Assembly (NCBI GenBank): GCA_903913865.1
Contig: CAIWMU010000214.1
Location: forward strand, 1-64,000
Length of the DNA stretch: 64,000 nucleotides
From: an uncultured Verrucomicrobia subdivision 3 bacterium
GTDB taxonomy: Bacteria; Verrucomicrobiota; Verrucomicrobiia; Limisphaerales; UBA8199
Direction of reading: 5' to 3'
Shown here: in pieces, positions 1-20,729 of the stretch
Position numbering within the stretch: the first letter of the stretch is position 1
How the letters are laid out: every line of letters begins with the position of its first letter
Notes under the pieces: generated by a model
Told to the model about the DNA's origin: nothing
Database searches by the model: none
Seen by the model: only the letters and a program-made list of their open reading frames with translations
Program-made: the position numbers and the translations under genes

Positions 1-119
1 AAGAAATGGGTGCGGAAGCCCTACCTTCCAGACAAAACCGAAAACGTCAGACCCCGAGGAAAGCCCTGTGGAATAAGGAGCGCAGAAGATTTATGTCGCG
101 CATATTATGCGCAGGTGTA

Positions 120-312
120 TAGCGTGTCAGAATTTCCTGCCAGATTCGCAACCGCCTCCGAGGTCCAATCCACCGCCACATCCAACAGTTCAGGAATGAC
201 TTAGCACCAGAAATCCTCCAAACCGCCAGGCCTTAGCGTCCCCCGGGTGGGTCATTACAAATCCGTGCGGCAACTGCAGGGTGCCCACAAGTTGCCCGTC
301 GTCCGAACTGTT
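120..312 (-). pseudogene. Remnant of a second TPR/glycosyltransferase gene (frameshifted)
   Basis: Read on the minus strand, this stretch closely matches the 3' part of the giant glycosyltransferase gene at 3648-10409 (the segment near 3970-4155). The encoded pieces DDGQL, THPGDAKAW, FGGF, ELLDVAVDWTSEAV and NLAGNSD mirror DGGQL, THPGDAEAW, FGGF, ELLDVAVDWTTEAV and NLAGNSD there. One extra T in the stretch reading CATTCCTGAACTG (CATCCTGAACTG in the intact copy) breaks the frame. Similarity fades on both sides, so this is an isolated fragment. Just left of it is the palindrome GCGCATATTATGCGC (98-112), absent from the intact copy. The likely origin is duplication or rearrangement in the glycosyltransferase locus. 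Confidence 0.75.
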
Positions 313-1713: not shown

Positions 1714-1945
1714 AACATATCGTATGGATCACCTCCTCAATTTGCTCGAAACTGAAATTGGCCTACCAATCACCCCCGACACTCCTTTGGTAAGTTCGGG
1801 CTTGATCGACAGCCTGAAATTCTCGCGCCTGCTAATCTTGTTGGAAGAGTGTTATGGAGTTCCTATTGATTGCAGAGATGTTGGGACGGATAATTTCGAC
1901 ACCCCAAGACAGATTCTTCAGTTTCTACAACCGCGCCCTCAATGA
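1685..1945 (+). CDS. Acyl carrier protein
   Basis: An 86-residue carrier protein with the phosphopantetheine site SSGLIDSLKF; the serine after Asp is the attachment residue. The four-helix layout is visible, with an LLNLLETEIG first helix and an FSRLLILLEECYGVPI second helix. It overlaps the end of the preceding gene by 29 bases and shares ATGA with the following ligase, so translation is probably coupled. An alternative start is the in-frame ATG at 1724, just past the upstream stop codon. It probably holds an acyl group activated by the ligase for delivery to the acyltransferase domain encoded upstream. It is unlikely to be the fatty acid synthesis ACP, given its low-G+C surface-glycan setting. 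Confidence 0.88.
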   Translation: MNSSVNLNPETYRMDHLLNLLETEIGLPITPDTPLVSSGLIDSLKFSRLLILLEECYGVPIDCRDVGTDNFDTPRQILQFLQPRPQ

Positions 1946-3647: not shown

Positions 3648-6600
3648 CTACGCAGTGTCTGCTTCTGCCATCGCCGTCCTGAGAACGCGGCTGGCGGTGG
3701 GCAGCGATACTTCCAATTTGGACATCGCCTGGTTCAATGTTAAAACCAGCTCAGTGCCACCATAGTGGAGAATCCGTTGATACCAGCGGATGAATTCCCG
3801 GCTGACCTCCTCCTCGCCGGTCTCCACAGGCCTCACGTCCTCACCCGAAGCCAGCTGGCATAGGATCCCGGCCGCCTTCCTGCTTGCCGTTGAAACCCCA
3901 GATTGCTGCCACAATGGCAGTGCCAGAGCGGGCTTGCCCGACAGGAGAAGCGCCTCAGCGTTTTGTGCCAGCACATCAGAATTTCCTGCCAGATTCCCAA
4001 CCGCCTCCGTGGTCCAATCCACTGCCACATCCAGCAGTTCAGGATGACTCAACGCAAGAAATCCCCCAAACTGCCAGGCCTCAGCATCCCCGGGATGGGT
4101 CGTGACAAGGCCGTGCAGCAACTGCAGGGCATCCCCCAGTTGCCCGCCATCCGCATGAAGGCGTGAACAATCAAACCGGATCGTCCGCGATTGGGGATCC
4201 TCCGCCATTGCCTCACGGCAAACCTCCAATGCCGCATCCTTCCTCCCCTGCCCGGACAGGCTCATGGCCAGACAGTGCCGGGGTCCACCCTTTCGAATAT
4301 CCCGGTTCACAGGTGCGAGGGATGGCTTGTCCCTTCCCGTCAGGCAGAGCCTCAGTTGCTCCTCAGCCTCGACAAACCGCTTCAGGCGCAAAAGTGCCAC
4401 ACCCAGCGAAAAGTGAAGCGAGGCATTAAGCCCCCCGCGACGGGCCAGGGGGGAAGTCAGGACCTCCACCAATTCCTCAAGCAGGTTGCCCGACATCAGT
4501 TGGGAGCAGATCTGGGACAGCAGCATCTCGCGGGTTTCCGGCACCAGTTGTGCATCCGGCAGGGCCGACATCTTTTCGACGGCCAGCCGGTATTGCTCCA
4601 GCGCCTCGACCGCACGTCCCGACCGCGACAACTCCAGCCCGTAGTTCATCAGCAGGTTGGATTCATCCGGCATCTCCTCCAGCGCCTTCTCCAGCAACTG
4701 CAGGTTGCGCTCCACTTTTTTGCGATCCTTGACCACCTCCGGCGCGTAACCGAAGTGCATCAGCACCGCATCCCCGATTTTGTTATCCAAACCCCATTCC
4801 TGACGCCGGACCTCTATGCTCGAAAACACCTGCTCATGCACCCGACCCACATAGAACAAAGCTGGCGCATTCCGGAACAGGCGCGGCACATAACTGCAGC
4901 CGTCCTCCTCACGACCGTGATCGATGATCGGGAGCCGCCAGGCCATTACCTTCGGGTTCCCTATCAAGCCCCTCAAGGCAGCATGGCTTGTCTCGGGCAC
5001 CGTCTCATCTGCATCCAGGATCAGCACCCAATCCCCCGTGGCATGTGCCAACGCCGCATTCCGCGCCGCACTGAAATCATCGCACCATGTGAAGTGATCC
5101 ACCCGGGCCCCATGTTCCTTCGCAATGTCCACGGTGCGATCGGTCGATCCGGTGTCCACCACGATAATCTCATCGGCCAGGCCCCGCACCGAGGCGAGGC
5201 AGGCCCCGAGGAACTTCTCTTCATTCCGTGCGATGAGGCAGACCGAAAGTCTCATCTTCTCAGAAACCAATCCTGGCGGCATCGTCAACCACGCGGGACT
5301 GTTCCGGTTCCCGAAGTTCTTCTTCGCAAACCGGCGCGCCTCCTTCAAACCGGGCGCAAGCACACTCGCCTTGTCCGCACAGCGGGTCGCCATTTTTCCA
5401 TCGCCAGCCTGTGCCGCGATTTGTGCCAGAAGCATGTAGGCCTCCGGATGGCATGGACGGATGGCGACTGCCACAAGCCCGGCTTCCCATGCCTGCCGCA
5501 ACTGGTTCTGCCGCAGCAATTCCCTCGCTCCGGCCAACCCTCCCAACCGGGCGCAGGGCGGGGCAACAATTGGCGCAGGCTTTCGGTCTGTAGCCGGGGC
5601 AGTTTTCGCCGCCCCTTTTTCCACATCCGCCTGAAGAGAATCCAGATACCGCCGCATCGTGCGGACCGCACATTCCCAGGTCCACTCCTGGCGGACACAA
5701 TCACTCGCTGCACGTCCCCGGGTCCTCGCTTCCTCCCGATTCTCAAAAACATGCCTCATTTGGGATGCGGTTTCAGGAATCGACGGCTCCAGCATCCACC
5801 CTTCCCCAGCCAGATCCATCCCGCTCACCTTCCGCCCAATACCCCGCACCTTCGAGGACACGCGGTAAACCAGATGTGCCGGCGCGAAGTCGTCCGCAGC
5901 GCCACCCCCGGTCACAATCACCGGCAGGCCGCAGGCCATTGCCTCGAGCACTGGCAAACCAAAACCCTCCCCCCGATACGGATGCACGAGACAATCGCAA
6001 GCCGTATAGAGTCCCGGCAGGCTCTCAGGTGGCAATTCATCGTTCAGATACAAAATCTCCGGTGCATCCGGACGCCCCTGGATCTCCTGAATCGCCTGTT
6101 CCATCGTCTGGCCAGCATAAAAACTCTTGCCACCGAAATCCTTGATCACAAGGCACACATCATCCTGGGCGCTGAAGCTCTTCAAGTAGGCCTCAAGCAG
6201 CACATCCGGCCCCTTGCGATGAATCGTCCCCCCCACAAACAAAAACTTGAAGGTCTTCCGAGTTCCCAACGGGAGTGGCTTTGCATCCGGCCGGAACTTC
6301 TCCGGCTCAATCCCATTCGGCACCACCTTCACCTTGGATTCCGGCACACCGGAACTCACATACACCTTGCGAACATGCTCTGAAGGCACCCAGAACTGCT
6401 GCACGTTCCGCGACTGCGATACCCACTCCACCGGCAGCGACCCATACTCCCAGGGCTGGATCACCACCAGCGCCCCCTGCTTCACAGGACTCCAATCCGG
6501 CGGCCACGCATGGCGCACTGTGATTTGGGAACCGGCGATGGGTCCTGATGCTAGAGTTGCAGCCAGTGCTTTCAACTCAGGCACAGCGGCACACCCTCCC

Positions 6601-9600
6601 GAAAGTGTGGAATCCCCCACTCGCGTCAACTGAACATTCGGCTGAGCAGCAAACTGCCTAGTGAACTCTCTATTTACATGGGAAAGACTGCCAAAATCCA
6701 GAAAGCTGCCTTGCCACGACAATTTGAGGGATTTTACAGCCTTGGATTGTCGGTTGCCGTCGAAACCTTTCGTGGAATCCACTTTTCGTGCAAATTTTCT
6801 AGCAAGGCATTCATCTATCGCTGCGATCATGGGTGGCAACGTCTTGGCTGGCCCAAATCCCTGCTCAACAGTTAACCGGGCAAGATTACCGCGATGGTGT
6901 CGCTGAGATTCCGGCAAGTCAAATGACGCTCGCAGGGTGTGCTTAACATCTTCAATGCATAGTAGGGGCATCGATTTTCCACGATGGTGTGGTTGGTAAA
7001 GGAGTTCACTCTCTGTTATTGGCCGGACCCTCGCCGAGGATACTGGAATAATGAACGATGATTCACTGCAAAACAAAACGGTTGGCAAAGCTTCGCCATA
7101 CCCGTCAGGGATAACCGCTATCTTTCCACGGGCAAAAGCTTCACCTACGGGGGCGGTAGCCGTGGTATCTGTCGAGACGTAAACATCACAACTGTCAATC
7201 AGTTCACAGATGCCACGGCGCGTGCCCAACACCTCATCAAGGACTAATTGGGCTTTTGAGCCGGTTTTCTCACGCAGACCCTCAATAAGCATCTGCAAAT
7301 CCCGCTTAGGCTGCTCTTGGTCCGGGTGCCATGATGGATAGTTAACCTTCAGATACAGCTCAACATTGAGGTCGTCCCTAAACTCTTCTAGATATGCTTC
7401 GATCAAAACATCCCAACGACGACGGGGAAGGAACATGGCTATGCTGAGAAACCTAAAAGGCCGCCCCCCTCGAAAAGAACCGATTCTCGGAAGTGAGAGA
7501 AGGGGATTATTGACCCACGGGTGAGGACAGTGGACCTCCCGCATCTTCTCGTGGTCAACACCGGCAACAGCAAAAATTTCGATTTCCTTCCGACTTCCCA
7601 ACCAAACCTGATCCATCTGCTGACATACAGAGATCCAATCCCGTGGGGGCTGATTTCCCTGAGCACTGCTGTCGAATGTGGTATACATAATGCGCACACT
7701 CTGAGCTGGAAGTTCGATTTTAAGCCAATTTGCGCTCGGCACGTGGAAAAAAATGGCGACAATTGGAAGCGATAATGGCGTCTGCTGAAGCTGTTTAAAG
7801 AGTTCCAAATCACAGTCATCGATGCCTTGCTCTACGTTATCGACTGGCACAATCCGGATCTTTAAACCCATCGCGACCAATCCAGCGACTAAAGCACGCG
7901 CAGAAACTCCATACCCGCTCCGGTTATAGAACGGCGCCACAATGAGCAAGGTTGGACTCGTGCCGGCTCTGCTCTGAACCCCTGCAAGACCCGGTTGTGA
8001 GCGCACTTCAATCACAGGACTATTCGTTCTCCTCTTAGATGGATGACCTAGCATTGCCGTCATCCGTGACTCCATTCGATCTACGGTATTTCTCCAAGTG
8101 TACTGCGCGTGCACACGCTCAGCAGCCGCTGCAGCACGTGTTGCAGCCGCTGCAGGGCGACGCACAGCCTCCCTCAATCGCTCCTGCAGATCTCCAATCT
8201 TAACCTCTGCGTGGAGTTGCTCTCCCGACACACGCCAGTGACCAACAAGTGTTGCTGGCCGACGGACTTCTTTAGCAGGTAAAAGACAGGCGGTATCTTG
8301 GTCACAAAACTCAGTGACACCCCCATAATTCGTCACGACCACTGGCAATCCACAGGCCATTGCTTCAAGCACGGCAAGCCCAAAGCTCGAGGCTCGAAAC
8401 GGCTGAACAAAACAGTCGCACGCCGTATATATCCCCGCTAATTCAGCCTCACTGATCATACCATCTAGGTATTCAATCTCCGGACAACTCGGCACCTTCG
8501 CACGGCAAAGATCTATCTGGCTTTTCCCGGCGCGAGGCACATAATAATCCTCGCAACTCATGTCTTTGACCACAAGACATACGTCGTCGTGCGAGCTGAA
8601 GGTCTTCAAATAGGCTATCAACAATTGGTCAAATCCCTTCCGAGCCGTAGCCTCTCCGATGAACAGGAATTTGAACCTCTTGCGCGTCTTTAGAGGAGTT
8701 AGTGGCGCTCTTGGGTGGTATACAGCGGGATCAAAGCCGATGGGTACGACGTGTACTTTATCCCCACAGGCGGCAGAAAAATTTTGCCTGACAAACTCGC
8801 TTGGCACCCAGACCTCGTCGACATACTCAGAAATCGGCCGAACCCAATCTATCGGTATCGAACCCGACCACCATGTATTGAACAGAACCTGCCTATCGGC
8901 TGGCTGCTCAATGTAACTCGGATGCCAGCGGCTGCTGATGTTAACATGGGCCTGACGTTGGAATTGCTCATAGAAACTCGCTGCAAGCTTTTTATACTTT
9001 GGTGAATGGGCGATATCGAACTCCTCGACATGGAAGGCACTACAGCCAGGCACTAGCGACAGGGTGTGCCCGCGTCGCATAAGTTCAAGGCACGATTCAC
9101 GATTTACCGTCCCGGGCCTTCCATGGAACAACTGAAGCCCACACCAAGAGATTTTTAGACCACCTTGCGGCTGGTCTACGGAATCCTCCAAATGGCCTAC
9201 CGAACCAGCGCTTGCAGTCAGCGACAGTCGGTGTCGTTTGGCTTCCCAACCTCTTTTGATACTCTCGATTACCGGAGGGGTTGTTGCAGCGAAAGAGTAG
9301 CGCTCATCCAAAAACTTATAGGCCGCATCTGTTAACTCACAGCGGGTGTCCTGCCCCATTTCGTAAGTTTGTCTCAACGCCCTGCGCATTTCTGCACGAT
9401 CCAAAGCTGGAAAGCTCGTACCTCGGATGTGTGGTGCATATTCTGCCATTTCTGGAGTCATTTGCACCTGCCCACCGCTGTGCGGGACGATAAGTGCCTG
9501 CGGTGGAAGTTCGACCCCCCATCCCTCCCCTATAATTACTGGACGTTTGCGAATGATTGCTTCGGCAACCGGTGCCGTGCACTCCAAGTCCGAGGATACA

Positions 9601-10409
9601 TAAGCGTCACAACTATCAAATAGCCTTACCATCCCCATCCTTGTTCCGAGTGCGTCATCAACAATTACCCTCGCTCGCGACCCTGTCTCCCCCCGTGCTT
9701 TCGAAATCAGTGTGGCTAGGTCGCTTTTGGCCTTGCCTATACCGCGCGGGTGCCAATTTGGGTACGTCACCTTTAGGTACAACTCAGCCTCATCCCCAGT
9801 TGGGAACGCATGGAAAAACGCGCACAGCAAGGCATCCAATCTTCTTCGAGGGAGAAACAACGACACATGAAGGAATCGAAAGGGCTTACTAGGTTTTGCC
9901 TTGTGGTGTGATAATGGTAGGAGGGGATTATTTAACCACTGGTGCGGCGTCCGGAACGAATGAATTCTAGCAGGGTCCGCCCCACTTCGCACCCATGAAC
10001 GCTCCTCAGCCTCATTTACAACCCAAGTCTGGTCCATCTGGTCACAAATGTAGATGTATCGTGACTGTGGCGGTGCTGGATTCACGTTACTGTCAAAGCT
10101 CGTGTACATTATGCGCAAACTTGGATTCGGTAGCGCCAATTTCGGCCACAAATACGTAGGAACATACATGAAGATTGCAGTAACAGGTGGCACCAGAGGA
10201 GTGGTCTCCAAACGACGAAGTAGGGTGAGGTCAGTATCGTCCAGTCCACCCATCATACCGGGATCGTCGCAATTGACCGGGGCAACTTTCACGTTCAAAC
10301 CCGCAGAATGCAACGCTAATGTCCAAACACGAGCCAGCGCACCGAAGCCTTCGCGTCGGTAGTGCGGACCATAAATGACAACAGTCCCAGGGATTTGAGT
10401 CTTCATCAC
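3648..10409 (-). CDS. Giant multi-domain glycosyltransferase with GT2 and TPR regions
   Basis: A 2253-residue protein. Residues about 1-390 and 818-1195 are related Rossmann-type glycosyltransferase-like domains (KPFRFLHVSLFLPRRR and RPFRFLSIAMFLPRRR). Residues about 416-780 and 1230-1610 are related GT4 domains (KFLFIGEATARKGF and KFLFVGGTIHRKGP). The protein therefore carries a tandem two-domain unit. Only the last GT4 domain keeps the E-X7-E motif (EGFGLPVLE); the earlier one reads SSFGLAVLE. A linker rich in Ala leads to a GT2 domain at 1718-1900 (LSVCLIARNEEKFLG, DTGSTDRT, LDADE), then TPR-like helices to the end. It probably builds a surface or flagellar glycan in the cytoplasm; the TPRs may bind the protein acceptor. 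Base composition changes sharply near 6600-6660. Confidence 0.85.
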   Translation of the reverse strand: MMKTQIPGTVVIYGPHYRREGFGALARVWTLALHSAGLNVKVAPVNCDDPGMMGGLDDTDLTLLRRLETTPLVPPVTAIFMYVPTYLWPKLALPNPSLRIMYTSFDSNVNPAPPQSRYIYICDQMDQTWVVNEAEERSWVRSGADPARIHSFRTPHQWLNNPLLPLSHHKAKPSKPFRFLHVSLFLPRRRLDALLCAFFHAFPTGDEAELYLKVTYPNWHPRGIGKAKSDLATLISKARGETGSRARVIVDDALGTRMGMVRLFDSCDAYVSSDLECTAPVAEAIIRKRPVIIGEGWGVELPPQALIVPHSGGQVQMTPEMAEYAPHIRGTSFPALDRAEMRRALRQTYEMGQDTRCELTDAAYKFLDERYSFAATTPPVIESIKRGWEAKRHRLSLTASAGSVGHLEDSVDQPQGGLKISWCGLQLFHGRPGTVNRESCLELMRRGHTLSLVPGCSAFHVEEFDIAHSPKYKKLAASFYEQFQRQAHVNISSRWHPSYIEQPADRQVLFNTWWSGSIPIDWVRPISEYVDEVWVPSEFVRQNFSAACGDKVHVVPIGFDPAVYHPRAPLTPLKTRKRFKFLFIGEATARKGFDQLLIAYLKTFSSHDDVCLVVKDMSCEDYYVPRAGKSQIDLCRAKVPSCPEIEYLDGMISEAELAGIYTACDCFVQPFRASSFGLAVLEAMACGLPVVVTNYGGVTEFCDQDTACLLPAKEVRRPATLVGHWRVSGEQLHAEVKIGDLQERLREAVRRPAAAATRAAAAAERVHAQYTWRNTVDRMESRMTAMLGHPSKRRTNSPVIEVRSQPGLAGVQSRAGTSPTLLIVAPFYNRSGYGVSARALVAGLVAMGLKIRIVPVDNVEQGIDDCDLELFKQLQQTPLSLPIVAIFFHVPSANWLKIELPAQSVRIMYTTFDSSAQGNQPPRDWISVCQQMDQVWLGSRKEIEIFAVAGVDHEKMREVHCPHPWVNNPLLSLPRIGSFRGGRPFRFLSIAMFLPRRRWDVLIEAYLEEFRDDLNVELYLKVNYPSWHPDQEQPKRDLQMLIEGLREKTGSKAQLVLDEVLGTRRGICELIDSCDVYVSTDTTATAPVGEAFARGKIAVIPDGYGEALPTVLFCSESSFIIPVSSARVRPITESELLYQPHHRGKSMPLLCIEDVKHTLRASFDLPESQRHHRGNLARLTVEQGFGPAKTLPPMIAAIDECLARKFARKVDSTKGFDGNRQSKAVKSLKLSWQGSFLDFGSLSHVNREFTRQFAAQPNVQLTRVGDSTLSGGCAAVPELKALAATLASGPIAGSQITVRHAWPPDWSPVKQGALVVIQPWEYGSLPVEWVSQSRNVQQFWVPSEHVRKVYVSSGVPESKVKVVPNGIEPEKFRPDAKPLPLGTRKTFKFLFVGGTIHRKGPDVLLEAYLKSFSAQDDVCLVIKDFGGKSFYAGQTMEQAIQEIQGRPDAPEILYLNDELPPESLPGLYTACDCLVHPYRGEGFGLPVLEAMACGLPVIVTGGGAADDFAPAHLVYRVSSKVRGIGRKVSGMDLAGEGWMLEPSIPETASQMRHVFENREEARTRGRAASDCVRQEWTWECAVRTMRRYLDSLQADVEKGAAKTAPATDRKPAPIVAPPCARLGGLAGARELLRQNQLRQAWEAGLVAVAIRPCHPEAYMLLAQIAAQAGDGKMATRCADKASVLAPGLKEARRFAKKNFGNRNSPAWLTMPPGLVSEKMRLSVCLIARNEEKFLGACLASVRGLADEIIVVDTGSTDRTVDIAKEHGARVDHFTWCDDFSAARNAALAHATGDWVLILDADETVPETSHAALRGLIGNPKVMAWRLPIIDHGREEDGCSYVPRLFRNAPALFYVGRVHEQVFSSIEVRRQEWGLDNKIGDAVLMHFGYAPEVVKDRKKVERNLQLLEKALEEMPDESNLLMNYGLELSRSGRAVEALEQYRLAVEKMSALPDAQLVPETREMLLSQICSQLMSGNLLEELVEVLTSPLARRGGLNASLHFSLGVALLRLKRFVEAEEQLRLCLTGRDKPSLAPVNRDIRKGGPRHCLAMSLSGQGRKDAALEVCREAMAEDPQSRTIRFDCSRLHADGGQLGDALQLLHGLVTTHPGDAEAWQFGGFLALSHPELLDVAVDWTTEAVGNLAGNSDVLAQNAEALLLSGKPALALPLWQQSGVSTASRKAAGILCQLASGEDVRPVETGEEEVSREFIRWYQRILHYGGTELVLTLNQAMSKLEVSLPTASRVLRTAMAEADTA

Positions 10410-10475: not shown

Positions 10476-11642
10476 TCATAGGCAGCGGCTATGCGGGATG
10501 GCGTATAGAACCAACTCCCAACAGTCTTCAGCATAGCGGCGCAGGTAGTAACGGTAGCCATCAGAGTGCGCTTTGAAAAACAGAGGAAGTTCCCATAGGT
10601 GGTTCCCCTCGTGGTATAGGCATATAGCCCAAACAGCTGTGGCACTTCCAATTAGCTTGCGTGCACCAGAAAGAGCGCCAGGTTCGGCACCTTCAATATC
10701 CATTTTGACATAAGAAGCGCACGCCTCTTGTAGAATTTCGTCCAGAGTGGCACAATCCACCTCTAAAATTCCACTGCTTGATATGCCGGATCCAGCATCC
10801 CCATTTGCAGAGAACTGAACCTTTTCCCTCCTCGCACCCACGGCAACATTATGAACCTGAATTTTCGCCCCTACATCTAAGGGCAGTGATGCTATTGACT
10901 GTCTCAGTTTAGCGCAATTCGACGGATCAGGTTCTAAGGGAATGATTTTTCGAAAAGAATTTCCCGTTAAGGATAGGAAATTCCGCATACTATCACCATC
11001 GAAGGCACCGCAGTCGATAAAGGTTTCATCCTTCGTCACCTCAACCAAATCGGAAGGAAAGTATGTTTCTACGACTGGCGATTGTGGTGGCAGCTGCTTT
11101 GAATCCATGGTTTGACGCCACTTCAATTGAGCCACAAACTCCTGGCGGGAAACCTCATCATCCCACAACTCAAAAGCCTTCAAGATTTGCTGGCTTTGTT
11201 CTCTTATAGTTTCTGGCAATTGTATTCCTCCATAGGGCAAGAATGTCTCTGGGTACTTCCAGAACAAGGTTGTATAGGGGACCACACGCAAGCATCCGAG
11301 GCCCGTAAGCTGGCCTACCAAAGCAGATGGGTTAAAAATTGTTGCTACGAATATCGCTCTATCACGAAAGTTGAGCGCAGCGGCTTCAGTTCGAACCACC
11401 GGCATACCTTCCACGACCTGCCCCGAGAGGTGCGGATTGTTGTCAGCCCACGCAATTGGATGAATTCCAAGTTGCCTGAGGCCACGCAAGGCCCTTTTTC
11501 CAAGAGGACCCGCGCCACAGAGAATTATCGGACAATCGTCCTCACCTGCGACCTTGTCCCATAGCGCCATGTTCCGTTCACTGTGCACAGATGGATTCTC
11601 ACCCAAAAGCACCTCCAATTCAGCTCTCAGCGTCTTGCTCAT
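10476..11642 (-). CDS. FkbM family methyltransferase with N-terminal nucleotide-binding domain
   Basis: A 388-residue protein. The N-terminal part (about 30-130) contains ILCGAGPLGKRALRGL and looks like a small Rossmann domain that often precedes FkbM methyltransferases in polysaccharide clusters. From about residue 195 follows the methyltransferase core: TFIDCGAFDGDS (SAM-binding motif I), IIPLEPDP (acidic residue for the ribose) and YVKMDIEGAEPGAL, the hallmark of the FkbM family. It would O-methylate a sugar hydroxyl on the glycan made by this locus. It lies 66 bases upstream of the giant glycosyltransferase on the same strand and has similarly low G+C content. The acceptor sugar is unknown. 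Confidence 0.85.
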   Translation of the reverse strand: MSKTLRAELEVLLGENPSVHSERNMALWDKVAGEDDCPIILCGAGPLGKRALRGLRQLGIHPIAWADNNPHLSGQVVEGMPVVRTEAAALNFRDRAIFVATIFNPSALVGQLTGLGCLRVVPYTTLFWKYPETFLPYGGIQLPETIREQSQQILKAFELWDDEVSRQEFVAQLKWRQTMDSKQLPPQSPVVETYFPSDLVEVTKDETFIDCGAFDGDSMRNFLSLTGNSFRKIIPLEPDPSNCAKLRQSIASLPLDVGAKIQVHNVAVGARREKVQFSANGDAGSGISSSGILEVDCATLDEILQEACASYVKMDIEGAEPGALSGARKLIGSATAVWAICLYHEGNHLWELPLFFKAHSDGYRYYLRRYAEDCWELVLYAIPHSRCL

Positions 11643-11874: not shown

Positions 11875-13674
11875 CTATTCCGCCAGAATTGGCACTATCA
11901 TATTTTTCTCGAACTCCCTCCGCTCGAGAAATGGATACATATCCTCCAACGGCTTTGAAACAATCGATCCGTCCGACCGTTGTGCTGACGCAACGCGAGG
12001 CACTCTCGGTTCGTCAGCCATAACAATCACCTCGCATACCACTGGACCTTCCAGTTCTAGCACATCCCTTAGATCATCTCTCAATGTTTCCGGGTTGCTG
12101 AGCCGCCTCGCGCTGATTCCGTAAGACTCGGCCACCTTCACATAATCCGGTAGCGAGAGTCCGCTGGTCTCATCGGCCCCGGTTAGCCGTCCGAAGTAGG
12201 TTCGTTGTGAATTCCTAATCGAGGCATATCCACCGTTATTTATGACGAAAAACTTGATCGGTAATTTGAGGCGACGGACGGTTTCCAACTCCTGGATGTT
12301 CATTGTGAACCCCCCATCTCCATCAATGGCAATCGTCCGGCAGTTTCCACCCGCAAGACAGGCTCCAATCGCCGCCGGTTGGGAAAGCCCCATCGAGCCG
12401 GTCCCCTTGTTATGGAAAACCCTCTGGCGGGGCTTGCACTTGAATGCGGTGAGGAAAATCTCCGCCACAAATCCCGCACTGCCGGGCAGGACAATGTCCC
12501 CTTCTACCAGTTCCTCTGCCAAAATATCGGAAAATGCATAGAGACTGATCCCTCGTCGCTCTGCCAGATGCTCCGGACTCACGAAAGGATACCGGACTTG
12601 CCAATCGCGACAGCGGCTTATCCAGTGTTCCCGGTTTCGGGTTTGAACTTCATTGGAAAGCGTCTGAATCGACTCCAAAAACAGGTTTGCATCCCCCTCC
12701 ACAGCGACATCAATGATCGGACCGAGTTTCCTAATCTCCGCAGGATCAATGTTTACCATGACCTTTTTGGCACCACGCGCCAGCCTCTCAGGTGCATAGG
12801 CAATTAGCGCCATGTCCAACCTGGCTCCCAAAATTAAAAGGAAGTCACAATTCTGAAGCGTGAAGTTTGCCGCCCTTGAAGCGATGCCCCCGGGCATTCC
12901 AAAGCAGAGCGGATGATTCGCAGGCAACAAGTCAACCCCGAGTCTTGTTGTCAAAACCGGTATGTTCAGCTGGTCCACCAGATTCTGAAAGAGTGCCTCG
13001 CCACCTGCCAGGCGAAGTCCGTTCCCCACCAGAATCACAGGCCGCTCGGAATCGTTCAGGAGCCGAATCGCCTGCCGTGCCAGCGCGAGCATGGGAACGT
13101 GTTCCCACGGTCTCTTAAGCTCATTTGGAATGAAAGCCGCCAGTTGCGAGGGTTCAATCTCAGCGACTTGCACATCAAGCGGCACATCAATCCACACCGG
13201 GCCCGGACGTCCAATCCGCGCAAGATAAGCCGCCTTCTCCAAGTGGTAACGAATGGTGGCCGGCTCCACAACCGTCACTGCATATTTTGTGATGGGCGTC
13301 ACGATGGAAACGATGTCCGTTTCCTGCACGCCCAATTGGCGCAAGCCCGTTCCCCCCTTCAGGTCCGGCCTTTTGACCTGGCCTGAAAGAAACAGCACGG
13401 GGGTGGAGTCTAACCAGGCTGCCGACACCCCGGTTACCGCGTTGGTTCCACCAGGTCCGGTCGTAACCAGGCACGCTGAGAGCCTGTTTGTGACGCGGGC
13501 ATGAGCCTCAGCAGCGATGGCCGCAGCTTGTTCGTGCTGCATCGCCACAAATTCCAAACCGGGGCAACGGCCGAGCGAATCATTCAGATGCATGGCCCCT
13601 CCACCCGGGAGCATGAACACATGCTTGACCCCCTGGTCGGCAAGAAACGCCATGGTGTAGTCAGACAATTTCAT
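11875..13674 (-). CDS. Thiamine-diphosphate enzyme, acetolactate synthase / YerE-like
   Basis: A 599-residue enzyme with all three ThDP-family domains. The N-terminal part has the catalytic glutamate in QHEQAAAIAAEAHAR, and TGPGGTNAVTG. The central part matches the cofactor domain (PVILVGNGLRLAGG, LGARLDM). The C-terminal GDGGFTMNIQELETV with INNGGYASI gives the GDG...NN thiamine-binding signature. It resembles acetolactate synthase large subunits, but its operon partners are CDP-sugar genes. YerE, a relative, adds a two-carbon unit from pyruvate to a CDP-4-keto-3,6-dideoxyhexose to give a branched sugar; that role fits here but is inferred from context. Its ATG overlaps the stop of the phosphatase gene (ATGA). 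The alternative is true acetolactate synthesis, which is less likely without a regulatory subunit gene. Confidence 0.82.
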   Translation of the reverse strand: MKLSDYTMAFLADQGVKHVFMLPGGGAMHLNDSLGRCPGLEFVAMQHEQAAAIAAEAHARVTNRLSACLVTTGPGGTNAVTGVSAAWLDSTPVLFLSGQVKRPDLKGGTGLRQLGVQETDIVSIVTPITKYAVTVVEPATIRYHLEKAAYLARIGRPGPVWIDVPLDVQVAEIEPSQLAAFIPNELKRPWEHVPMLALARQAIRLLNDSERPVILVGNGLRLAGGEALFQNLVDQLNIPVLTTRLGVDLLPANHPLCFGMPGGIASRAANFTLQNCDFLLILGARLDMALIAYAPERLARGAKKVMVNIDPAEIRKLGPIIDVAVEGDANLFLESIQTLSNEVQTRNREHWISRCRDWQVRYPFVSPEHLAERRGISLYAFSDILAEELVEGDIVLPGSAGFVAEIFLTAFKCKPRQRVFHNKGTGSMGLSQPAAIGACLAGGNCRTIAIDGDGGFTMNIQELETVRRLKLPIKFFVINNGGYASIRNSQRTYFGRLTGADETSGLSLPDYVKVAESYGISARRLSNPETLRDDLRDVLELEGPVVCEVIVMADEPRVPRVASAQRSDGSIVSKPLEDMYPFLERREFEKNMIVPILAE

Positions 13675-14132
13675 TCTTCTATTCTGTCCAGCAACTCCCG
13701 TACCGCTCCCTGTCCACCCCCTTTGCTGGCAACGAACTTCGCAACAGCCAGCACGGATCGGTGTGCATCCGCAGGTGCCGCTGCCAACCCGGCCAGATTA
13801 AGGGCACCCAGATCGTTGATATCATCGCCCATAAACGCAATTTCCGAAAGTTCAATCCCGAGCTCACCTGCAAACCCATGAAGCGCGGATGCTTTGTCTT
13901 TGCATCCCTGATAAACATTGACGATGTTCATCTTCTCGGCAAAGCGTGTGATCAGCGGGTTGGCCTCGCCCGAAATCAACGCAAAAACCAAACCCCGCTT
14001 GCTTGCACGCGAAATCCCCATCACGTCCCGAAAGCAGAACCTCTTGAATTCCGCACCTTCGGGGCCCCACCAGAACGCACCATCAGTGAGCACCCCATCA
14101 ACATCCAGGGCAACAGCCTTTATGGGAGTCAT
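13671..14132 (-). CDS. KdsC-type HAD phosphatase
   Basis: A 153-residue C0-type HAD phosphatase without a cap. Visible motifs are ALDVDGVLTDG (nucleophile Asp and acid/base Asp), ALISGEAN (motif II) and AFMGDDINDLGAL (metal-binding acidic pair). The length equals that of KdsC, the 3-deoxy-octulosonate 8-phosphate phosphatase. In this operon it directly follows the NeuB-type synthase with a four-base overlap, so it probably removes the phosphate from a sugar-acid phosphate made by that enzyme, as in pathways to KDN or sialic acid that go through a 9-phosphate. Cytoplasmic. Confidence 0.85.
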   Translation of the reverse strand: MTPIKAVALDVDGVLTDGAFWWGPEGAEFKRFCFRDVMGISRASKRGLVFALISGEANPLITRFAEKMNIVNVYQGCKDKASALHGFAGELGIELSEIAFMGDDINDLGALNLAGLAAAPADAHRSVLAVAKFVASKGGGQGAVRELLDRIEE

Positions 14133-15022
14133 GCCGGTGTCAGCGCAGGGGTTGCATTCCCATTGCGACGCAGCTTCTTCAAGATGGGCTTCTCCCGCTC
14201 AATGACCCGCTTCACACCATTGCCCATCGCACTCTCAACAAGGCGGATATCACGAACAAGTCGGGTGATGCCATTCGGCTCAAGCGACGCGGCATGATCC
14301 GAGCCCCACATCGACCGGTCCAGAGTGATGTGCCTCTCCACAACGCACGCCCCGAGGCAGGCAGCGGCGACTGACGATGGGATTCCCGTTTCGTGGCCGG
14401 AATAGCCCACTGGAACACCGTAGCGCTGGCGAAGCGCGGGAATGACGCGCAAGTTGAGTTCACCGTAGTGCGCAGGGTAGGTGCTCATGGCGTGCATGAC
14501 AATCAACCCACGCTTGCCGAGGAGTTCAACCGCATGGTCGATCTGCTCCAGGGTGCTCATGCCGGTCGCCAGTAGAATAGGCCGACCCACTGCACGGGTA
14601 TGACGCAGAAGGTTGTCATCCGTCAGGCTTGCCGAAGCAATCTTGAAGCATGGAACATCAAACTGGGCGATGAAATCCACTGATGCCTCGTCCCAGCAGG
14701 ACGCAAACCACTGAATGCCGCGCTCCTTGCAATAACGATCAATATCCTGATATTCGGCGAGACCGAACTCCAACCCCCGTTTCAGGTCACCATTTGTTGA
14801 ACCGAAAGGATTTTCGCGCGGCTTTGCCAATTCCTCAGCCGTATACACGACGTCAATTGTGCGCTTCTGGAATTTGACCGCGTTACACCCGGCAGCCTGT
14901 GCCACATCAATCAGCTTCTTGGCCAGATCAATGTCCCCGTTGTGGTTGATGCCTATCTCGGCGATGATGTAGCAGGGATGGGATTCGCCCACCAGAGTGC
15001 TGCCAATTTTGACTTCTTGCAT
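14129..15022 (-). CDS. NeuB-type nonulosonic acid (phosphate) synthase, short form
   Basis: A 297-residue TIM-barrel enzyme that condenses phosphoenolpyruvate with a sugar aldehyde. Key family segments are IIAEIGINHNGD, NAVKFQKRT, WFASCWDEASVDF, CFKIASASLTD, LLATGMST and PVGYSGHE, ending with ERHITLDRSMWGSDHAASL. The chosen ATG at 15022 is preceded by AAGGAGAAAAC, a clear ribosome site; the frame is open further upstream but without support. The C-terminal antifreeze-like (SAF) domain of standard NeuB (about 340-350 residues) is missing: the protein stops shortly after the barrel. The product could be a sialic, legionaminic or KDN-like acid. No CMP-transferase gene is in the window. Confidence 0.85.
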   Translation of the reverse strand: MQEVKIGSTLVGESHPCYIIAEIGINHNGDIDLAKKLIDVAQAAGCNAVKFQKRTIDVVYTAEELAKPRENPFGSTNGDLKRGLEFGLAEYQDIDRYCKERGIQWFASCWDEASVDFIAQFDVPCFKIASASLTDDNLLRHTRAVGRPILLATGMSTLEQIDHAVELLGKRGLIVMHAMSTYPAHYGELNLRVIPALRQRYGVPVGYSGHETGIPSSVAAACLGACVVERHITLDRSMWGSDHAASLEPNGITRLVRDIRLVESAMGNGVKRVIEREKPILKKLRRNGNATPALTPA

Positions 15023-15062
15023 GTTTTCTCCTTGTTGGTTTTCTGTCGTTTCTACTGGTCGT

Positions 15063-16130
15063 TCAGGGCTTATCGCAAGCAGCTCTGGCATGCCAGGCGG
15101 CCGTTCGTTGCAGGGATTGCGCCAGCCCGATCGTAGGGCGCAGTCCCAATTCTGTGGTGGCTCGTTTCGTCGATGGCACATAGCGCTGAGCAGGACAATC
15201 CCGCTGAGGCGTGCAGGCGGTCACAACTTTGGCCTGCGGGTTCAAGGCGCTGCACACCGCTTCGGCCAGGCCGGAAATGCTGATGGCATCTTCAGATCCG
15301 ACATTGTACGGGTGGCAGGATTGACCACGCAAAAGTATGGTCCAGAGCCACACAGCCAGATCTGCTGCGTAAAGGTAGGACCGCTGCGGGGTTCCATCCC
15401 CGGTTATCTTCAAAGTGTTCCCAGCCAGTGCGTCCCGAACAAAGTTGCCAATGGCAAAATGAGCATCCAGAGGAAGATGGGGGCCAACAAAAGCAAATCC
15501 ACGCGCGATCTTTGCGTTCAGTCCGTATTCCCGGTGATACAGAGCGCACAACAACTCAGCAACGCGCTTCCCCTCAGCATAGGCACTCGCCGGGCTCATC
15601 AGATCAGGTGCGCCGCTAAAGGTCTCCGGCATGTGCGTCATCTCAGGGGGCTGTTTTCCATAAACAGCTCCCGAGCTTGTAAGTAAAAAGTTCCTTGCAC
15701 CGCCTTGCACAGCAAATTGCAGAGCACGACGCGTGCCATCCACAGCCACCTCTAACATCCGCAGCGGTGATTCCTCATTCAAATGGGTTGCCGATTCTGT
15801 AGCCGCATGAATCACATGGGAAAAGGTTCCGCCGGGAAACTCAAACGAGCACACATCTCCAGCGTGAAGTCTGATGGCAGGGTCTGAAGCAAGGTGTGGT
15901 GCTTTTCGCCGGAACGCTTCCGGGTCACGGGATAGCGCCACAATCCGGGCTCCAAGTCCATATCTGCGGTTGGCCTCGGCAAAACTTTCCAGCAACCATC
16001 TGCCAAAAAAGCCAGTGCCCCCTGTGATGAAAATCGATTCCCCACGCAACTCTTCCCACAAGCCTTCAGTATGGGCCATGATGTGGTCCAGATCCTCCTT
16101 GGGACAGGTAGATGCGTGGTTCAGGTTCAT
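15063..16130 (-). CDS. NAD-dependent nucleotide-sugar epimerase/reductase
   Basis: A 355-residue extended short-chain dehydrogenase. It shows the nucleotide-binding FITGGTGFFGRWLLE, VIHAATES, the catalytic serine region LTSSGAVYGKQP and the catalytic Tyr-Lys pair in SAYAEGKRVAELL. It belongs to the NAD-dependent epimerase/dehydratase family. Its start overlaps the stop of rfbH (TGATG), so it is translationally coupled to the CDP-3,6-dideoxyhexose genes. The likely step is reduction or epimerisation of the keto sugar made by RfbH, for example giving CDP-abequose, -paratose or -tyvelose. In a yersiniose-type route it would be the reductase acting after the thiamine enzyme. The exact product cannot be told from the sequence. 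Confidence 0.8.
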   Translation of the reverse strand: MNLNHASTCPKEDLDHIMAHTEGLWEELRGESIFITGGTGFFGRWLLESFAEANRRYGLGARIVALSRDPEAFRRKAPHLASDPAIRLHAGDVCSFEFPGGTFSHVIHAATESATHLNEESPLRMLEVAVDGTRRALQFAVQGGARNFLLTSSGAVYGKQPPEMTHMPETFSGAPDLMSPASAYAEGKRVAELLCALYHREYGLNAKIARGFAFVGPHLPLDAHFAIGNFVRDALAGNTLKITGDGTPQRSYLYAADLAVWLWTILLRGQSCHPYNVGSEDAISISGLAEAVCSALNPQAKVVTACTPQRDCPAQRYVPSTKRATTELGLRPTIGLAQSLQRTAAWHARAACDKP

Positions 16131-17554
16131 CAGTGCTGGCGTCTGCAGAAGGTTTGAATGGTCTCCACCATGTAAGCCAGCATCTGCCCGGTCAAACCGG
16201 GGTAAACACCAATGAACAAGCTGTCTTTCATGATCTGGTCAGCTCCTGCCAGATCGCCGACCACCCGGAAGGCATCGGGTCGTTGTCGGATCAGGTTGGT
16301 GAATGCGGGTTGTCGCACAAGGTTGCCACCGAAGAGCATCCTGTTACCAATTCGGGCCGCATCCAGACACTCCACCAGTTCCCTTCTGCCAAATGGGGCT
16401 GTGGACTTGACTCGCATCATAAAACCGAACCAGGAACAATCTGACCGGTGGCCTGTGGAGTCCCACTCGAAGCCGTTCGGTGTCCATGCAGTCGCATGGG
16501 TTGGAAGCATGAAATCCAGATATTCCCCCAAGTCAGCCAGCTGTGTCCGCAGGATCTCCCAATTTTCTCTCCGTGCCTGGACAAAACCGGGCAGTTTTTT
16601 CAACTGCTGCCGACCTATGGCAGCCTGAATGTCCAACGGCTTCAGATTATAGCCGAGATGGTTGTAAACGTATTTGTGATCGTAACCTTCCGGCAGATCC
16701 CCAAGTTTCCACCCATACCGCTTGTGGCAGGTGTTGTCCCTGCCGCTGGGGCACCAGCATGCACGCCCCCAGTCGCGAAAACTCTCTGCCAGCTTTCCAA
16801 GATCTGATCTGGCTGGGATGTTCACGGCCCCACCCTCCCCCAAAGTCATGTGGTGGGGGGGATAGAAGGATTGTGTGGATAGATCCCCGAAACTGCCCGT
16901 AGGCTTGTTGTCATAGAAGCTCCCAAGTGCATCACAATTGTCTTCAATGAGCCAGAGTCCGTGACGTTTGCAAAATTCAACAACGCTCGAGAGGTCAAAC
17001 GGGTTGCCCAGTGTGTGAGCCAGCATGACCGCCTTGGTGATCCCCGGCCGGTATGCCTCTTCCAATGATCCCACACAAATGTTCAAGGTGGCAGGATCGC
17101 TATCCAGGAAGACCGGCACACACCCCTGTTGGAGAATGGGGGCAACAGTTGTGGGAAAGCCTGCTGCTGCGGTGATCACCTCATCGCCGGGGCGGAGTTG
17201 TCTCTCCCCCAGGCTGGGACTTGTGAGAGCGGAGATTGCCAAAAGATTTGCCGATGACCCGGAGTTGACCAGCAACGAGGATGAAACCCTCAGGCATTTC
17301 GCCAACTCACGCTCGAATTGTTGGCCCTCCGGACCCAGCGTGAGCCAGAAATCGAGGGTCGCACCAACGGCAGCCTCGACCTCATCTTCATCAAAAACCC
17401 GCCCGGCATAGGGAATCGTTGTTTGGCCGGGAAGAAATGGGCCAGCGACCCCCCTCTTTGGATCGGATGCCGGCAGGTGACTCGAGTGGACTTTGGAAGC
17501 GTAAAGGCGGGTCAACCGAAGAATTTCTGACTTAAGCTGTTGGGTATCATCCAT
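16130..17554 (-). CDS. rfbH: CDP-4-keto-6-deoxy-D-glucose 3-dehydrase (E1)
   Basis: A 474-residue PMP-dependent and iron-sulfur enzyme that removes the C3 hydroxyl of CDP-4-keto-6-deoxyglucose. It has the aminotransferase fold (NSGSSANLLAIS, PTTVAPILQQG, LIEDNCDALGS). The usual PLP-binding lysine is replaced by histidine in FYPPHHMTLGEGGAV, exactly as in characterised E1 enzymes. The cysteines for its [2Fe-2S] cluster are present in ACWCPSGRDNTC. The partner reductase E3 (rfbI/ascD/ddhD) is not in the window and must be encoded elsewhere or replaced. It sits 13 bases downstream of rfbG in the same operon. Strong assignment. Confidence 0.93.
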   Translation of the reverse strand: MDDTQQLKSEILRLTRLYASKVHSSHLPASDPKRGVAGPFLPGQTTIPYAGRVFDEDEVEAAVGATLDFWLTLGPEGQQFERELAKCLRVSSSLLVNSGSSANLLAISALTSPSLGERQLRPGDEVITAAAGFPTTVAPILQQGCVPVFLDSDPATLNICVGSLEEAYRPGITKAVMLAHTLGNPFDLSSVVEFCKRHGLWLIEDNCDALGSFYDNKPTGSFGDLSTQSFYPPHHMTLGEGGAVNIPARSDLGKLAESFRDWGRACWCPSGRDNTCHKRYGWKLGDLPEGYDHKYVYNHLGYNLKPLDIQAAIGRQQLKKLPGFVQARRENWEILRTQLADLGEYLDFMLPTHATAWTPNGFEWDSTGHRSDCSWFGFMMRVKSTAPFGRRELVECLDAARIGNRMLFGGNLVRQPAFTNLIRQRPDAFRVVGDLAGADQIMKDSLFIGVYPGLTGQMLAYMVETIQTFCRRQH

Positions 17555-17567
17555 GATATTGTTTCCT

Positions 17568-18677
17568 TTAGCCTCTCGCCCAAGGCAGTTCCCTGAGTTT
17601 GGCTTGGCGGCAATAGGTGTCGATTTGCGAGAGGGTCAGGTTGTGGATGGCATCGGTCTGCTGTGCGACCTCCGCCTGCTTATACCACGAGACGGTTTGA
17701 GCCACAGTCTCCTCAAAGCTCCAGACCGGAGTCCAAGCCAGTTCCTGGCGGGCTTTGTCTGTGCAGAGTTGAAGCAGTCTTGCCTCGTGGACGGCTTTGG
17801 CACTCGTAACCGTTTCCCATCTGCCCTCCCAATGGCGAAGAACTTCCTCCACCAGATTTGAAACAGGGCGATTGGACTCATTACCGGGACCAAAATTAAA
17901 GGCACTGCAGGGCTCGACTCCGTTCAGGTGCTGTCGTCCCCTCCCCGCCATGACTGCTCCCAGCCAAAGGTAACCGCTGAGCGGTTCCAAAACATGCTGC
18001 CATGGCCGAGTTGCGATCGGGTTTCTCACTGGCACAACATCGCCCCGGCTCAGATGGCGGATGCAATCCGGCACGATCCTGTCCATGGCCCAATCACCAC
18101 CGCCGATGACATTCCCCGCACGGGCACTTGCAATTTTTACGGGGTGGTCTGCAAAGAAGGACTGGCGGTAGGCCTGAATCACCAGTTCGGCAGCGGCCTT
18201 GCTCGAGCTGTAAGGGTCACACCCGCCGAGGGGATCCCCCTCCCTGTATCCATAAACCCACTCCCGATTCTCGTAACACTTGTCGGTCGTGATGAATACA
18301 GCTGCGCAGGGCTGGCGGAGGTTGCGAAGTGACTCCATCACATGGACTGTTCCCAGAACATTCGTGGCATAGGTCTCCACCGGTCTGGTGTAACTCTCAC
18401 GCACCAGAGGCTGGGCCGCGAGATGAAAGACAAAATCTGGCTGGGCGGCGTTAATCGATCGCTGGACTGAAGCCAGATCACGCACGTCACCCATCTCGTT
18501 TACAACCCGATCCGACAGGCCCACCTGTTCAAACAAAGCGGGTTGTGTTGGGGCTGGCAGGGAAAACCCGTGAACCTTCGCCCCCATTTTGACCAGCCAC
18601 TCGGCCAGCCAGGAGCCTTTGAATCCCGTGTGGCCGGAGAGCCATACAACCTTGCTGTCATAGGCACCGTCGAACAT
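17568..18677 (-). CDS. rfbG: CDP-glucose 4,6-dehydratase
   Basis: A 369-residue extended short-chain dehydrogenase. The N-terminal VVWLSGHTGFKGSWLAEWL is the NAD-binding motif and is characteristic of RfbG. Also seen are FHLAAQPLVRESY, ETYATNVLGTVHVM, VFITTDKCYEN and the catalytic YSSSKAAAEL. It converts CDP-glucose to CDP-4-keto-6-deoxyglucose, the substrate of RfbH. The ATG at 18677 comes two bases after the rfbF stop; the frame is open upstream into rfbF, but that extension has no family similarity. Part of the rfbFGH operon; cytoplasmic. Confidence 0.93.
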   Translation of the reverse strand: MFDGAYDSKVVWLSGHTGFKGSWLAEWLVKMGAKVHGFSLPAPTQPALFEQVGLSDRVVNEMGDVRDLASVQRSINAAQPDFVFHLAAQPLVRESYTRPVETYATNVLGTVHVMESLRNLRQPCAAVFITTDKCYENREWVYGYREGDPLGGCDPYSSSKAAAELVIQAYRQSFFADHPVKIASARAGNVIGGGDWAMDRIVPDCIRHLSRGDVVPVRNPIATRPWQHVLEPLSGYLWLGAVMAGRGRQHLNGVEPCSAFNFGPGNESNRPVSNLVEEVLRHWEGRWETVTSAKAVHEARLLQLCTDKARQELAWTPVWSFEETVAQTVSWYKQAEVAQQTDAIHNLTLSQIDTYCRQAKLRELPWARG

Positions 18678-18679
18678 AT

Positions 18680-19453
18680 TCACCACACCTTCCAGGGCGG
18701 CCGGCCGGAGAGATACATTTTCTCCAATTGCTGCTGCTCCCGGTATGTGTCCATGCACTGCCAGAATCCGGCGTGTGCAAAGGCATGAACCCGTCCTTCC
18801 GACGCCATTCGCGTCAACGGTTCTTGTTCGAGAACCGTCTCGTCGTTTTCCAGATAATCGCCGACGCCCTTGCTGAAGACGAAAAAGCCCCCGTTAATGT
18901 ACTGGTCATCTGCTTGAGGCTTCTCCTTGAAGGCGGTCACGCGCGTTTGCTCAACCTTTATGTCGCCAAAGCGCGAGGCAGGCCTGACACCAGTGATGGT
19001 CGCAAGGCCTCCGTGCTGCTTGTGAAAGGCTATCGACTCGTTGATGTTGCTATTGATGAGCCCGTCACCATACGTTGCAAGAAAGGTGTCAGAATCAATG
19101 TATGGAAGCGCCCGAAGCAGTCGCCCCCCGGTTTGCGTTTCCTGCCCGGTATCAAGCAGGGTCACATTCCAATCCTCTTCCGAGTGGTGGGTGTGATAGG
19201 TAACCCGGGGGTTGGACCCCAGGCTCAAAGTCACATCGCTCGTGTTCCAGTGGTAGTGCCGGAAGTAGTCCTTGATTACCTCCCCCTTGTAACCGAGGCA
19301 GAGGATGAAATCCTTGTGCCCGTAATGGGCATAGATTTTCATGATATGCCACAAGATCGGCCGGTTGCCCACTGGCACCATCGGCTTCGGCCGGAATTCC
19401 GTCTCTTCGCGCAGACGGGTTCCCAGGCCACCGCAAAAAATCACCACCTTCAT
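18680..19453 (-). CDS. rfbF: Glucose-1-phosphate cytidylyltransferase
   Basis: A 257-residue nucleotidyltransferase making CDP-glucose from CTP and glucose-1-phosphate. The start MKVVIFCGGLGTRLREET...RPKPMVPVGNRPILWHIMK is diagnostic, followed by FILCLGYKGEVIKDYF and FLATYGDGL. The length is right for RfbF. A ribosome site (AGGAAGG) lies about 12 bases before ATG. It is the first sugar gene after flagellin (138 bases downstream of it on the same strand), so the CDP-sugar pathway begins right behind the flagellin gene. No convincing terminator was seen in that gap, so read-through from the flagellin promoter is possible. Confidence 0.93.
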   Translation of the reverse strand: MKVVIFCGGLGTRLREETEFRPKPMVPVGNRPILWHIMKIYAHYGHKDFILCLGYKGEVIKDYFRHYHWNTSDVTLSLGSNPRVTYHTHHSEEDWNVTLLDTGQETQTGGRLLRALPYIDSDTFLATYGDGLINSNINESIAFHKQHGGLATITGVRPASRFGDIKVEQTRVTAFKEKPQADDQYINGGFFVFSKGVGDYLENDETVLEQEPLTRMASEGRVHAFAHAGFWQCMDTYREQQQLEKMYLSGRPPWKVW

Positions 19454-19591: not shown

Positions 19592-20404
19592 TTACTGGAG
19601 GAGGCGCAGCACGCTTTGCGGGAGCTGGTTTGCCTGGGCCAGCATCGCTGTGCCGGATTGGGAAAGAATGTTCTGTTTCGCAAACTCGGTGGATTCCTCG
19701 GCCACGTCTGTGTCCTGGATCCGGGAGCTGGCAGCGGAGAGATTCTCCTTGCTGACAGTGAGTTGCTCGGATGTGTAATTCAGGCGGGTCTGGAAGGCAC
19801 CAATGTTCGCGCGGTCCTTCGAAAGTTGGGTGATCACGTTCTTGATCTCCGTGAGGGCGGCAGCGGCTGCACCAGTCGTCGACACATTCACCGAACCGGA
19901 ATTGACGACAGTCGAGTAGGGAACGGCAGCCATGTCGAGGCCCGCCATGGCAAAGGTGGTGCCGTCGGAATCAATCGCCACCTCAAGATTGGAGGGGGAG
20001 AACAGGCTGACGCCGTTGAAATCCTTCGTGGCGGCGGAGCTGATGTAGCTCTGGAGCTGGGAGAATTCCTTGTTATACAGGTCGCGGTCGGAATCGGTCT
20101 TCGTGCCGTCCTGTGCCAGGATGGAAAGTTCGCCCATGCGGTCCAGGGCCTTGCCGATCTTCTGCACATACCCATGCTGGGTCTGGACGAAGGAGACGGC
20201 GTTGTTGACGTTGTATTTCGCGGCCTGGATGCGGTTGATCTGGGCATCGATCCGCGAGGCGACTGCCAGTCCGGCAGCATCGTCGGAAGGCTGGATGATT
20301 CTGGTGCCGGAACTCAGGCGGGCCAGGGACTTGCTCAACCGGGTCTGCGTGGTTTGCAGGTTGTCCGAGTTGATTTGGGCTTGAATGTTCGTATTAATGA
20401 CCAT
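19592..20404 (-). CDS. fliC: Flagellin
   Basis: A 270-residue flagellin of the short type. The N-terminal D0/D1 region (MVINTNIQAQ, LSKSLARLSSGTRI, DDAAGLAVASRID) and C-terminal region (IGAFQTRLNYT, ESTEFAKQNILSQSG, ANQLPQSVLRLLQ) are intact. The central part is short, so the outer D2/D3 domains are essentially absent. That region is rich in Ser/Thr (STVVNSGSVNVSTTG), which are candidate O-glycosylation positions. It follows csrA by 47 bases and precedes the sugar operon. No normal Shine-Dalgarno sequence is seen before the ATG. It assembles into the extracellular filament. Confidence 0.95.
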   Translation of the reverse strand: MVINTNIQAQINSDNLQTTQTRLSKSLARLSSGTRIIQPSDDAAGLAVASRIDAQINRIQAAKYNVNNAVSFVQTQHGYVQKIGKALDRMGELSILAQDGTKTDSDRDLYNKEFSQLQSYISSAATKDFNGVSLFSPSNLEVAIDSDGTTFAMAGLDMAAVPYSTVVNSGSVNVSTTGAAAAALTEIKNVITQLSKDRANIGAFQTRLNYTSEQLTVSKENLSAASSRIQDTDVAEESTEFAKQNILSQSGTAMLAQANQLPQSVLRLLQ

Positions 20405-20439
20405 GGTAGTTTATTATTTTATAGGTTTGAACATGACGG

Positions 20440-20444: not shown

Positions 20445-20451
20445 GTCTGAG

Positions 20452-20718: not shown

Positions 20719-20729
20719 AAATCCTTATG

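Follow-up and report, generated by a model that had tools for sequence, protein, structure and literature searches.

A giant modular glycosyltransferase beside flagellin, probably an assembly line whose front half was acquired by recombination

How flagellin glycans, which vary widely among bacteria, can change while flagellum assembly stays intact is a puzzle. This question is raised by a locus of an uncultured bacterium of the Verrucomicrobiota (order Limisphaerales), in which a giant glycosyltransferase gene, a set of sugar nucleotide genes and a flagellin gene lie on the same strand (Table 1) within a 64,000-nucleotide stretch of DNA, which was analysed as a whole and is called the window here. 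The giant gene is a single unbroken frame of 2,253 codons (3648-10409, minus strand) that starts with GTG. What does such a protein do, and how did it come to be built in this way? The evidence discussed below suggests that it is probably a cytoplasmic flagellin glycosyltransferase organised as a modular assembly line, with an attachment core and a front that was acquired by recombination inside domain 4.

The N-terminal part of the protein contains four glycosyltransferase modules. The initial annotation had described domains 1 and 2 as a tandem repeat of domains 3 and 4, and this was borne out when the protein segments were compared with each other by BLAST (residues 1-810 versus 811-1640, 36% identity over 796 residues, E=1e-161). 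In segment alignments, domains 1 and 3 share 39% identity (E=2e-94) and domains 2 and 4 share 36% (E=6e-69), and only a distant likeness was observed between domains 1 and 2 or between domains 3 and 4. Domains 2 and 4 are above the cut-off for Pfam GT4 models; domains 1 and 3 are GT4-like and akin to the module that stands before domain 4 in relatives. For domain 3, a complete GT-B fold was predicted (pLDDT 81, pTM 0.80) with GT4 enzymes as the nearest PDB folds, and the identity between the two domains supports the same fold for domain 1. Sequence and structural model together place domains 1 and 3 in the same kind of domain as the GT4 modules and not in a separate kind. The GT2 domain and TPRs that had been noticed after the repeats were both recovered by Pfam (PF00535 at residues 1721-1822, E=2e-24; TPR matches around residues 1895-2120), and a TPR-like stretch also lies N-terminal of the GT2 domain, so the C-terminal part is arranged as TPR-GT2-TPR.

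Table 1. Features of the giant glycosyltransferase gene and its neighbours in the window
Feature	Positions	Strand	Remarks
Domain 1 (residues 1-395)	9225..10409	-	GT4-like GT-B module; ECTAPVAE; RRR in place of RKG at the phosphate site
Domain 2 (residues 409-795)	8025..9185	-	GT4, same type as domain 4; SSFGLAVLE; RKG retained
Domain 3 (residues 819-1212)	6774..7955	-	Paralogue of domain 1; TTATAPVGE; complete GT-B fold predicted
Domain 4 (residues 1223-1615)	5565..6743	-	GT4; EGFGLPVLE and RKGPD intact
Core (residues 1641-2253)	3651..5489	-	Short TPR-like part, GT2, TPR superhelix, C-terminal tail
GT2 (GT-A), residues 1721-1911	4677..5249	-	GmaR/SunS-like; DADE motif
TPR superhelix and C-terminal tail	3651..4727	-	Putative flagellin-binding part, by analogy with GmaR and FlmG
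Junction inside domain 4 (residues 1281-1316)	6462..6569	-	GC3 change point and similarity border
FkbM-family methyltransferase	10476..11642	-	Belongs to the foreign segment
ThDP enzyme, acetolactate-synthase superfamily	11875..13674	-	YerE-like candidate, role suggested by genomic context
KdsC-like phosphatase and NeuB-type synthase	13671..15181	-	
SDR, RfbH, CDP-glucose 4,6-dehydratase (RfbG), glucose-1-phosphate cytidylyltransferase (RfbF)	15063..19453	-	CDP-3,6-dideoxyhexose route
Flagellin	19592..20404	-	81% identity to the flagellin at the corresponding site of sister species G001

The core provides the first indication of function. Its structure (residues 1641-2253) was predicted with high confidence as TPR-GT2-TPR (pLDDT 91), and the DADE motif of the GT2 domain, which is of the DxD type, is invariant in 18 sequences. 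When the core profile was compared with solved structures, the best match was the flagellin glycosyltransferase GmaR (E=1e-47); SunS and TPR proteins, among them O-GlcNAc transferase (OGT), came next, and the core resembles GmaR, SunS and the OGT-type TPRs in both sequence and fold. A TPR region C-terminal to GT2, as GmaR-type flagellin glycosyltransferases require, is present. Distant GT2-TPR relatives were found in many phyla by a scan of genome contigs.

The distribution of the core is closely associated with that of flagellin. Among 320 genomes of the order, the core profile was found in 121 and flagellin in 163; both occur in 118 genomes, the core alone in three, flagellin alone in 45 and neither in 154. 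Flagellin is therefore present in 118 of 121 genomes with the core versus 45 of 199 without it (Fisher p=3.6e-45, an optimistic value because related genomes are not independent). Two of the three genomes with only the core have partial core matches, and the third is a genome that is 59% complete. In addition, flagellin was detected in 21 of 68 loci of relatives (loci of at least 9 kb), nearly always on the same strand as the core; a single query was used, and contig ends account for part of the 47 loci without it. Flagellin also adjoins GT2-TPR genes in many loci of other phyla. Thus, flagellin as the substrate, which had been suggested from the window alone, is strongly backed by context, namely by co-occurrence, adjacency and GmaR as the nearest solved relative. 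Chain-like enzymes with several glycosyltransferase domains are known in capsule synthesis, which lends something to the view that the glycan is built for another target, such as capsule or O-antigen, and that flagellin is adjacent by chance; RfbF/G/H and YerE-like enzymes are likewise best known from O-antigens (PMC12247030). However, such a target is very improbable, considering that the core is GmaR-like and nearly confined to flagellated genomes and that the adjacency to flagellin recurs.

A comparison of relatives reveals how these proteins are composed. The core usually lies at the C-terminal end of a giant ORF in genomes of the order (63 complete frames of 657-4,401 residues, median 2,013), and the fronts of relatives hold GT4, GT2, HAD and WbsX domains as well as FkbM and other methyltransferases. 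An assembly join of separate genes, which had been raised as a possible objection to the long frame in the window, is not needed to explain its length, since relatives from many families of the order share the C-terminal layout in equally long frames; the long frame is a natural recombinant. In 15 of 41 pairs whose cores share at least 65% identity, the fronts are unrelated (less than 25% detectable similarity, with none in 12), and similarity between relatives begins right at the N-terminal edge of the core, of domain 4 or of a domain-3-type module. These alignments indicate that front halves are exchangeable while the core stays conserved, and exchange of half a gene is probably enough to alter the flagellar sugar chain. 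In other phyla, the GT4 module and the GT2-TPR part are encoded separately by two adjacent genes next to flagellin (Gemmatimonas loci L051 and L069, Desulfacinum locus L097), which is evidence that the fused parts work together.

Several other arrangements were observed among the relatives. Free-standing cores occur in two genomes (G045 and G019), and another locus (L209, 1511-5489, plus strand) has two free-standing cores in tandem with no front modules. The open and incomplete frame of locus L187 (1-15348, plus strand) has at least 5,116 residues, with the core at its end and two consecutive domain-4-type modules. One front, consisting of a HAD domain followed by approximately 600 residues without a Pfam match, is recurrent (L031, 5187-11063, plus strand; also L036, L039 and L041).

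An exchange of this kind can be located in the window itself. Sister species G001 has the same gene order (purine gene, flagellin, giant gene), and its DNA is similar to positions 19592-22319 and 4002-6529 of the window, with an interruption of 13 kb in the window versus 4.8 kb in G001, where an unrelated HAD-type front is encoded. At the protein level, the C-terminal ~960 residues are similar between the two species, and identity changes from 0.46 to 0.80 at residue 1301. Composition changes at nearly the same place: GC3 is 0.51 up to residue 1289 and 0.70 beyond it (interval of support for the change point 1281-1316; 2lnLR 79 versus at most 19 in 300 permutations). By composition and homology alike, the join therefore lies inside domain 4, and some 70 residues at the start of this domain are part of the foreign segment. 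A GC3 jump as a general trait of the family was considered and rejected: across 72 relatives, the difference between front and core averages 0.03, with three values above 0.1, and the steep change in the window therefore reflects a recent event. GC3 of the genes from FkbM to RfbF is 0.48-0.71 and increases towards flagellin, with 0.69-0.81 in flagellin and the genes sampled beyond, and no close RfbG was found in G001, implying that the front and the sugar genes probably arrived together. The source was probably another bacterium.

Other parts of the genome also carry traces related to this locus. Downstream of the giant gene, an AMP-binding enzyme (1942-3558, plus strand) and a fusion of GT2 with a hexapeptide acetyltransferase (373-1713, plus strand) have a GC3 of 0.49 and may represent a further foreign segment, which possibly serves to acylate the glycan. 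At the start of the contig, a broken fragment with stops (108-306, minus strand) matches residues 2086-2151 of the giant protein at 67-69% identity, which identifies it as the remnant of a second TPR tail. On another contig of the same genome (L009, 342-3956, minus strand), a protein of 1,204 residues is AMP-binding at its N-terminus and has a C-terminal tail that resembles residues 2005-2252 of the giant protein, and a second flagellin is present on that contig; the common tail may be a portable flagellin-targeting part.

The genes of the foreign segment suggest which sugar might be supplied. RfbF, RfbG and RfbH exceed the NCBIfam cut-offs, and the product of their pathway is presumably CDP-4-keto-3,6-dideoxyhexose. 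The neighbouring ThDP enzyme contains three TPP domains and is below the cut-offs of the acetolactate synthase equivalogs; its genomic context makes it a candidate YerE-like enzyme. Enzymes of this type extend CDP-4-keto-3,6-dideoxyhexose with a carbon branch, for which an alpha-keto acid is the donor (PMC12247030). A complete route to sialic, pseudaminic or legionaminic acid was also considered and rejected, as the NeuB, PseI, LegB and LegC models remained below their cut-offs. No SAF domain was detected in the NeuB-type synthase and no linked CMP-sugar synthetase was found, the only CTP_transf_3 protein of this genome being encoded elsewhere and of KdsB size; as the genome is ~95% complete, a further one may have escaped the assembly. 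One speculation is that the NeuB-type synthase and the KdsC-like phosphatase supply a 2-keto-3-deoxy acid as the branch donor, which would explain the absence of a linked CMP-sugar synthetase.

How many of the modules transfer sugars depends on their active sites. The E-X7-E motif had been read as EGFGLPVLE in domain 4 and SSFGLAVLE in domain 2 and as lacking from domains 1 and 3. Alignment with relatives confirmed the first two readings (phosphate sites RKGPD and RKGFD, respectively); for domains 1 and 3 the claim holds for the first Glu, which is gone, but not for the second, which is retained (-ECTAPVAE with RRRLD in domain 1, TTATAPVGE with RRRWD in domain 3). Consequently, the second Glu is present in all four domains and the first is missing in domains 1, 2 and 3. 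In relatives, the first Glu was found in all 54 domain-4-type modules and all 28 scorable weaker modules, the latter mostly of the domain-3 type with EGWGRPQHE or EGWGRPHHE, indicating that the loss is peculiar to the giant protein and not a habit of the family. In the model of the GT4 enzyme GumH, the first Glu is near the anomeric carbon and the second touches the ribose (PMC13104830). Residues on the ribose and phosphate sides are retained in domain 2 and partly in domains 1 and 3, and the Glu pattern of domains 1-3 is what one might see if catalysis were weakened or altered while nucleotides were still bound. As these three domains have no Glu near the anomeric carbon, the sugars added may be fewer than the domains.

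Within the main explanation, two alternatives can be considered for domains 1-3, and the balance between dead scaffolds and divergent enzymes appears about even. They are possibly, although with less than even probability, pseudo-glycosyltransferases that serve as a scaffold binding nucleotide sugar, acceptor or flagellin, in which case domain 4 and GT2 alone would catalyse and the product would be a disaccharide. The loss of the first Glu in all three domains against its constancy in relatives, the additional change from RKG to RRR in domains 1 and 3, and the retention of the ribose-side Glu, which is expected where nucleotide binding survives, are consistent with this. However, the unit has been duplicated with both copies in frame, undecayed and predicted to have a complete GT-B fold, RKG is retained in domain 2, many invariant residues are common to domains 1 and 3, and the cassette carries its own donor-sugar genes, which argues for a need of new transfers. 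An equally tentative view is that domains 1 and 3 represent a divergent catalytic GT-B group with an active site altered for the CDP-branched/dideoxy sugar of the linked genes. Both depart from domain-3-type modules at the same places, with TAPVxEA, RRR and other residues in common, and co-occur with RfbF/G/H and the ThDP enzyme, and searches of the order (320 genomes), the phylum (388 genomes) and plasmids found no close relative of either; yet these are two sequences of one protein, in which conservation is inseparable from recent common descent, and donor specificity cannot be inferred from them.

Taken as an assembly line, the giant protein probably works as follows. The C-terminal TPR part would hold flagellin and the GT2 domain of the core would attach the first sugar to it, as suggested by GmaR and FlmG; domain 4, as an intact GT4, would then add a following sugar, and the outer portion of the glycan would be built or held by the N-terminal GT-B modules. 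A short oligosaccharide assembled by one polypeptide, as proposed initially, fits this anatomy. Domains 1-3, the beginning of domain 4 and ~9 kb of sugar-nucleotide genes probably form one foreign cassette, which replaced a different front, such as the HAD-containing front of the sister species, by recombination inside domain 4. It is a more doubtful extension that the line is colinear, i.e., that the order of modules from the C- to the N-terminus is the order of sugars outward, and that the outer glycan changes by recombination of front and donor genes while flagellin and core are kept. If module order does set sugar order, the sequence of such a protein would reveal its glycan, much as a polyketide can be deduced from its synthase, and defined glycoproteins could be made by recombining modules. 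What the first Glu does in GT4 enzymes could also be tested directly on this protein, three of whose four modules lack it. More generally, the order appears to contain a widespread family in which exchangeable modules for chain building are joined to a conserved attachment core; no prior description of such modular proteins was found in the open-access literature, subscription journals being outside the scope of the search.

The individual parts of this protein are of known kinds. SunS and ThuS are peptide S-glycosyltransferases whose acceptors are small bacteriocin peptides, modified on Cys. They share the GT2 fold and sequence similarity with the core (PDB 7msp, 7msn, 7msk), whereas they have about 420 residues and no GT4 modules. 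GmaR of Listeria monocytogenes is a flagellin GlcNAc transferase composed of GT2 and a TPR part that is thought to recognise flagellin (PMC9638930, PDB 22ao); it has the same sequence of GT2 and TPR region and the same flagellin context and is the top solved match to the core, but it has 637 residues, no GT4 modules, and a linker and MogR antirepressor domain, and no match to a GmaR-type antirepressor domain appeared in a general Pfam search of the giant protein. In FlmG of Caulobacter crescentus, the TPR part alone binds flagellin, apart from the sugar-transferring part, and O-glycosylation is cytoplasmic (PMC7591256), which resembles the arrangement proposed here; however, FlmG has 596 residues, an N-terminal TPR part, a GT-B catalytic domain that uses pseudaminic acid, and no series of glycosyltransferase modules. 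With regard to CAZy family GT4 (GT-B, E-X7-E), domains 2 and 4 match its Pfam models, and domains 1-3 differ by the missing first Glu. The flagellin glycosylation islands of Aeromonas and Geobacillus also place a changing set of sugar genes next to flagellin; the heptasaccharide of Aeromonas needs a separate GT2 enzyme (Fgi-1), and group II islands have an AMP-dependent synthetase (PMC7874193, PMC5109656). Those islands vary gene by gene, whereas in the giant gene half a polypeptide was exchanged with the join inside a domain. For this combination, in which a conserved attachment core received a new front and its donor genes through recombination within a catalytic domain, no earlier account was found in the open-access papers.
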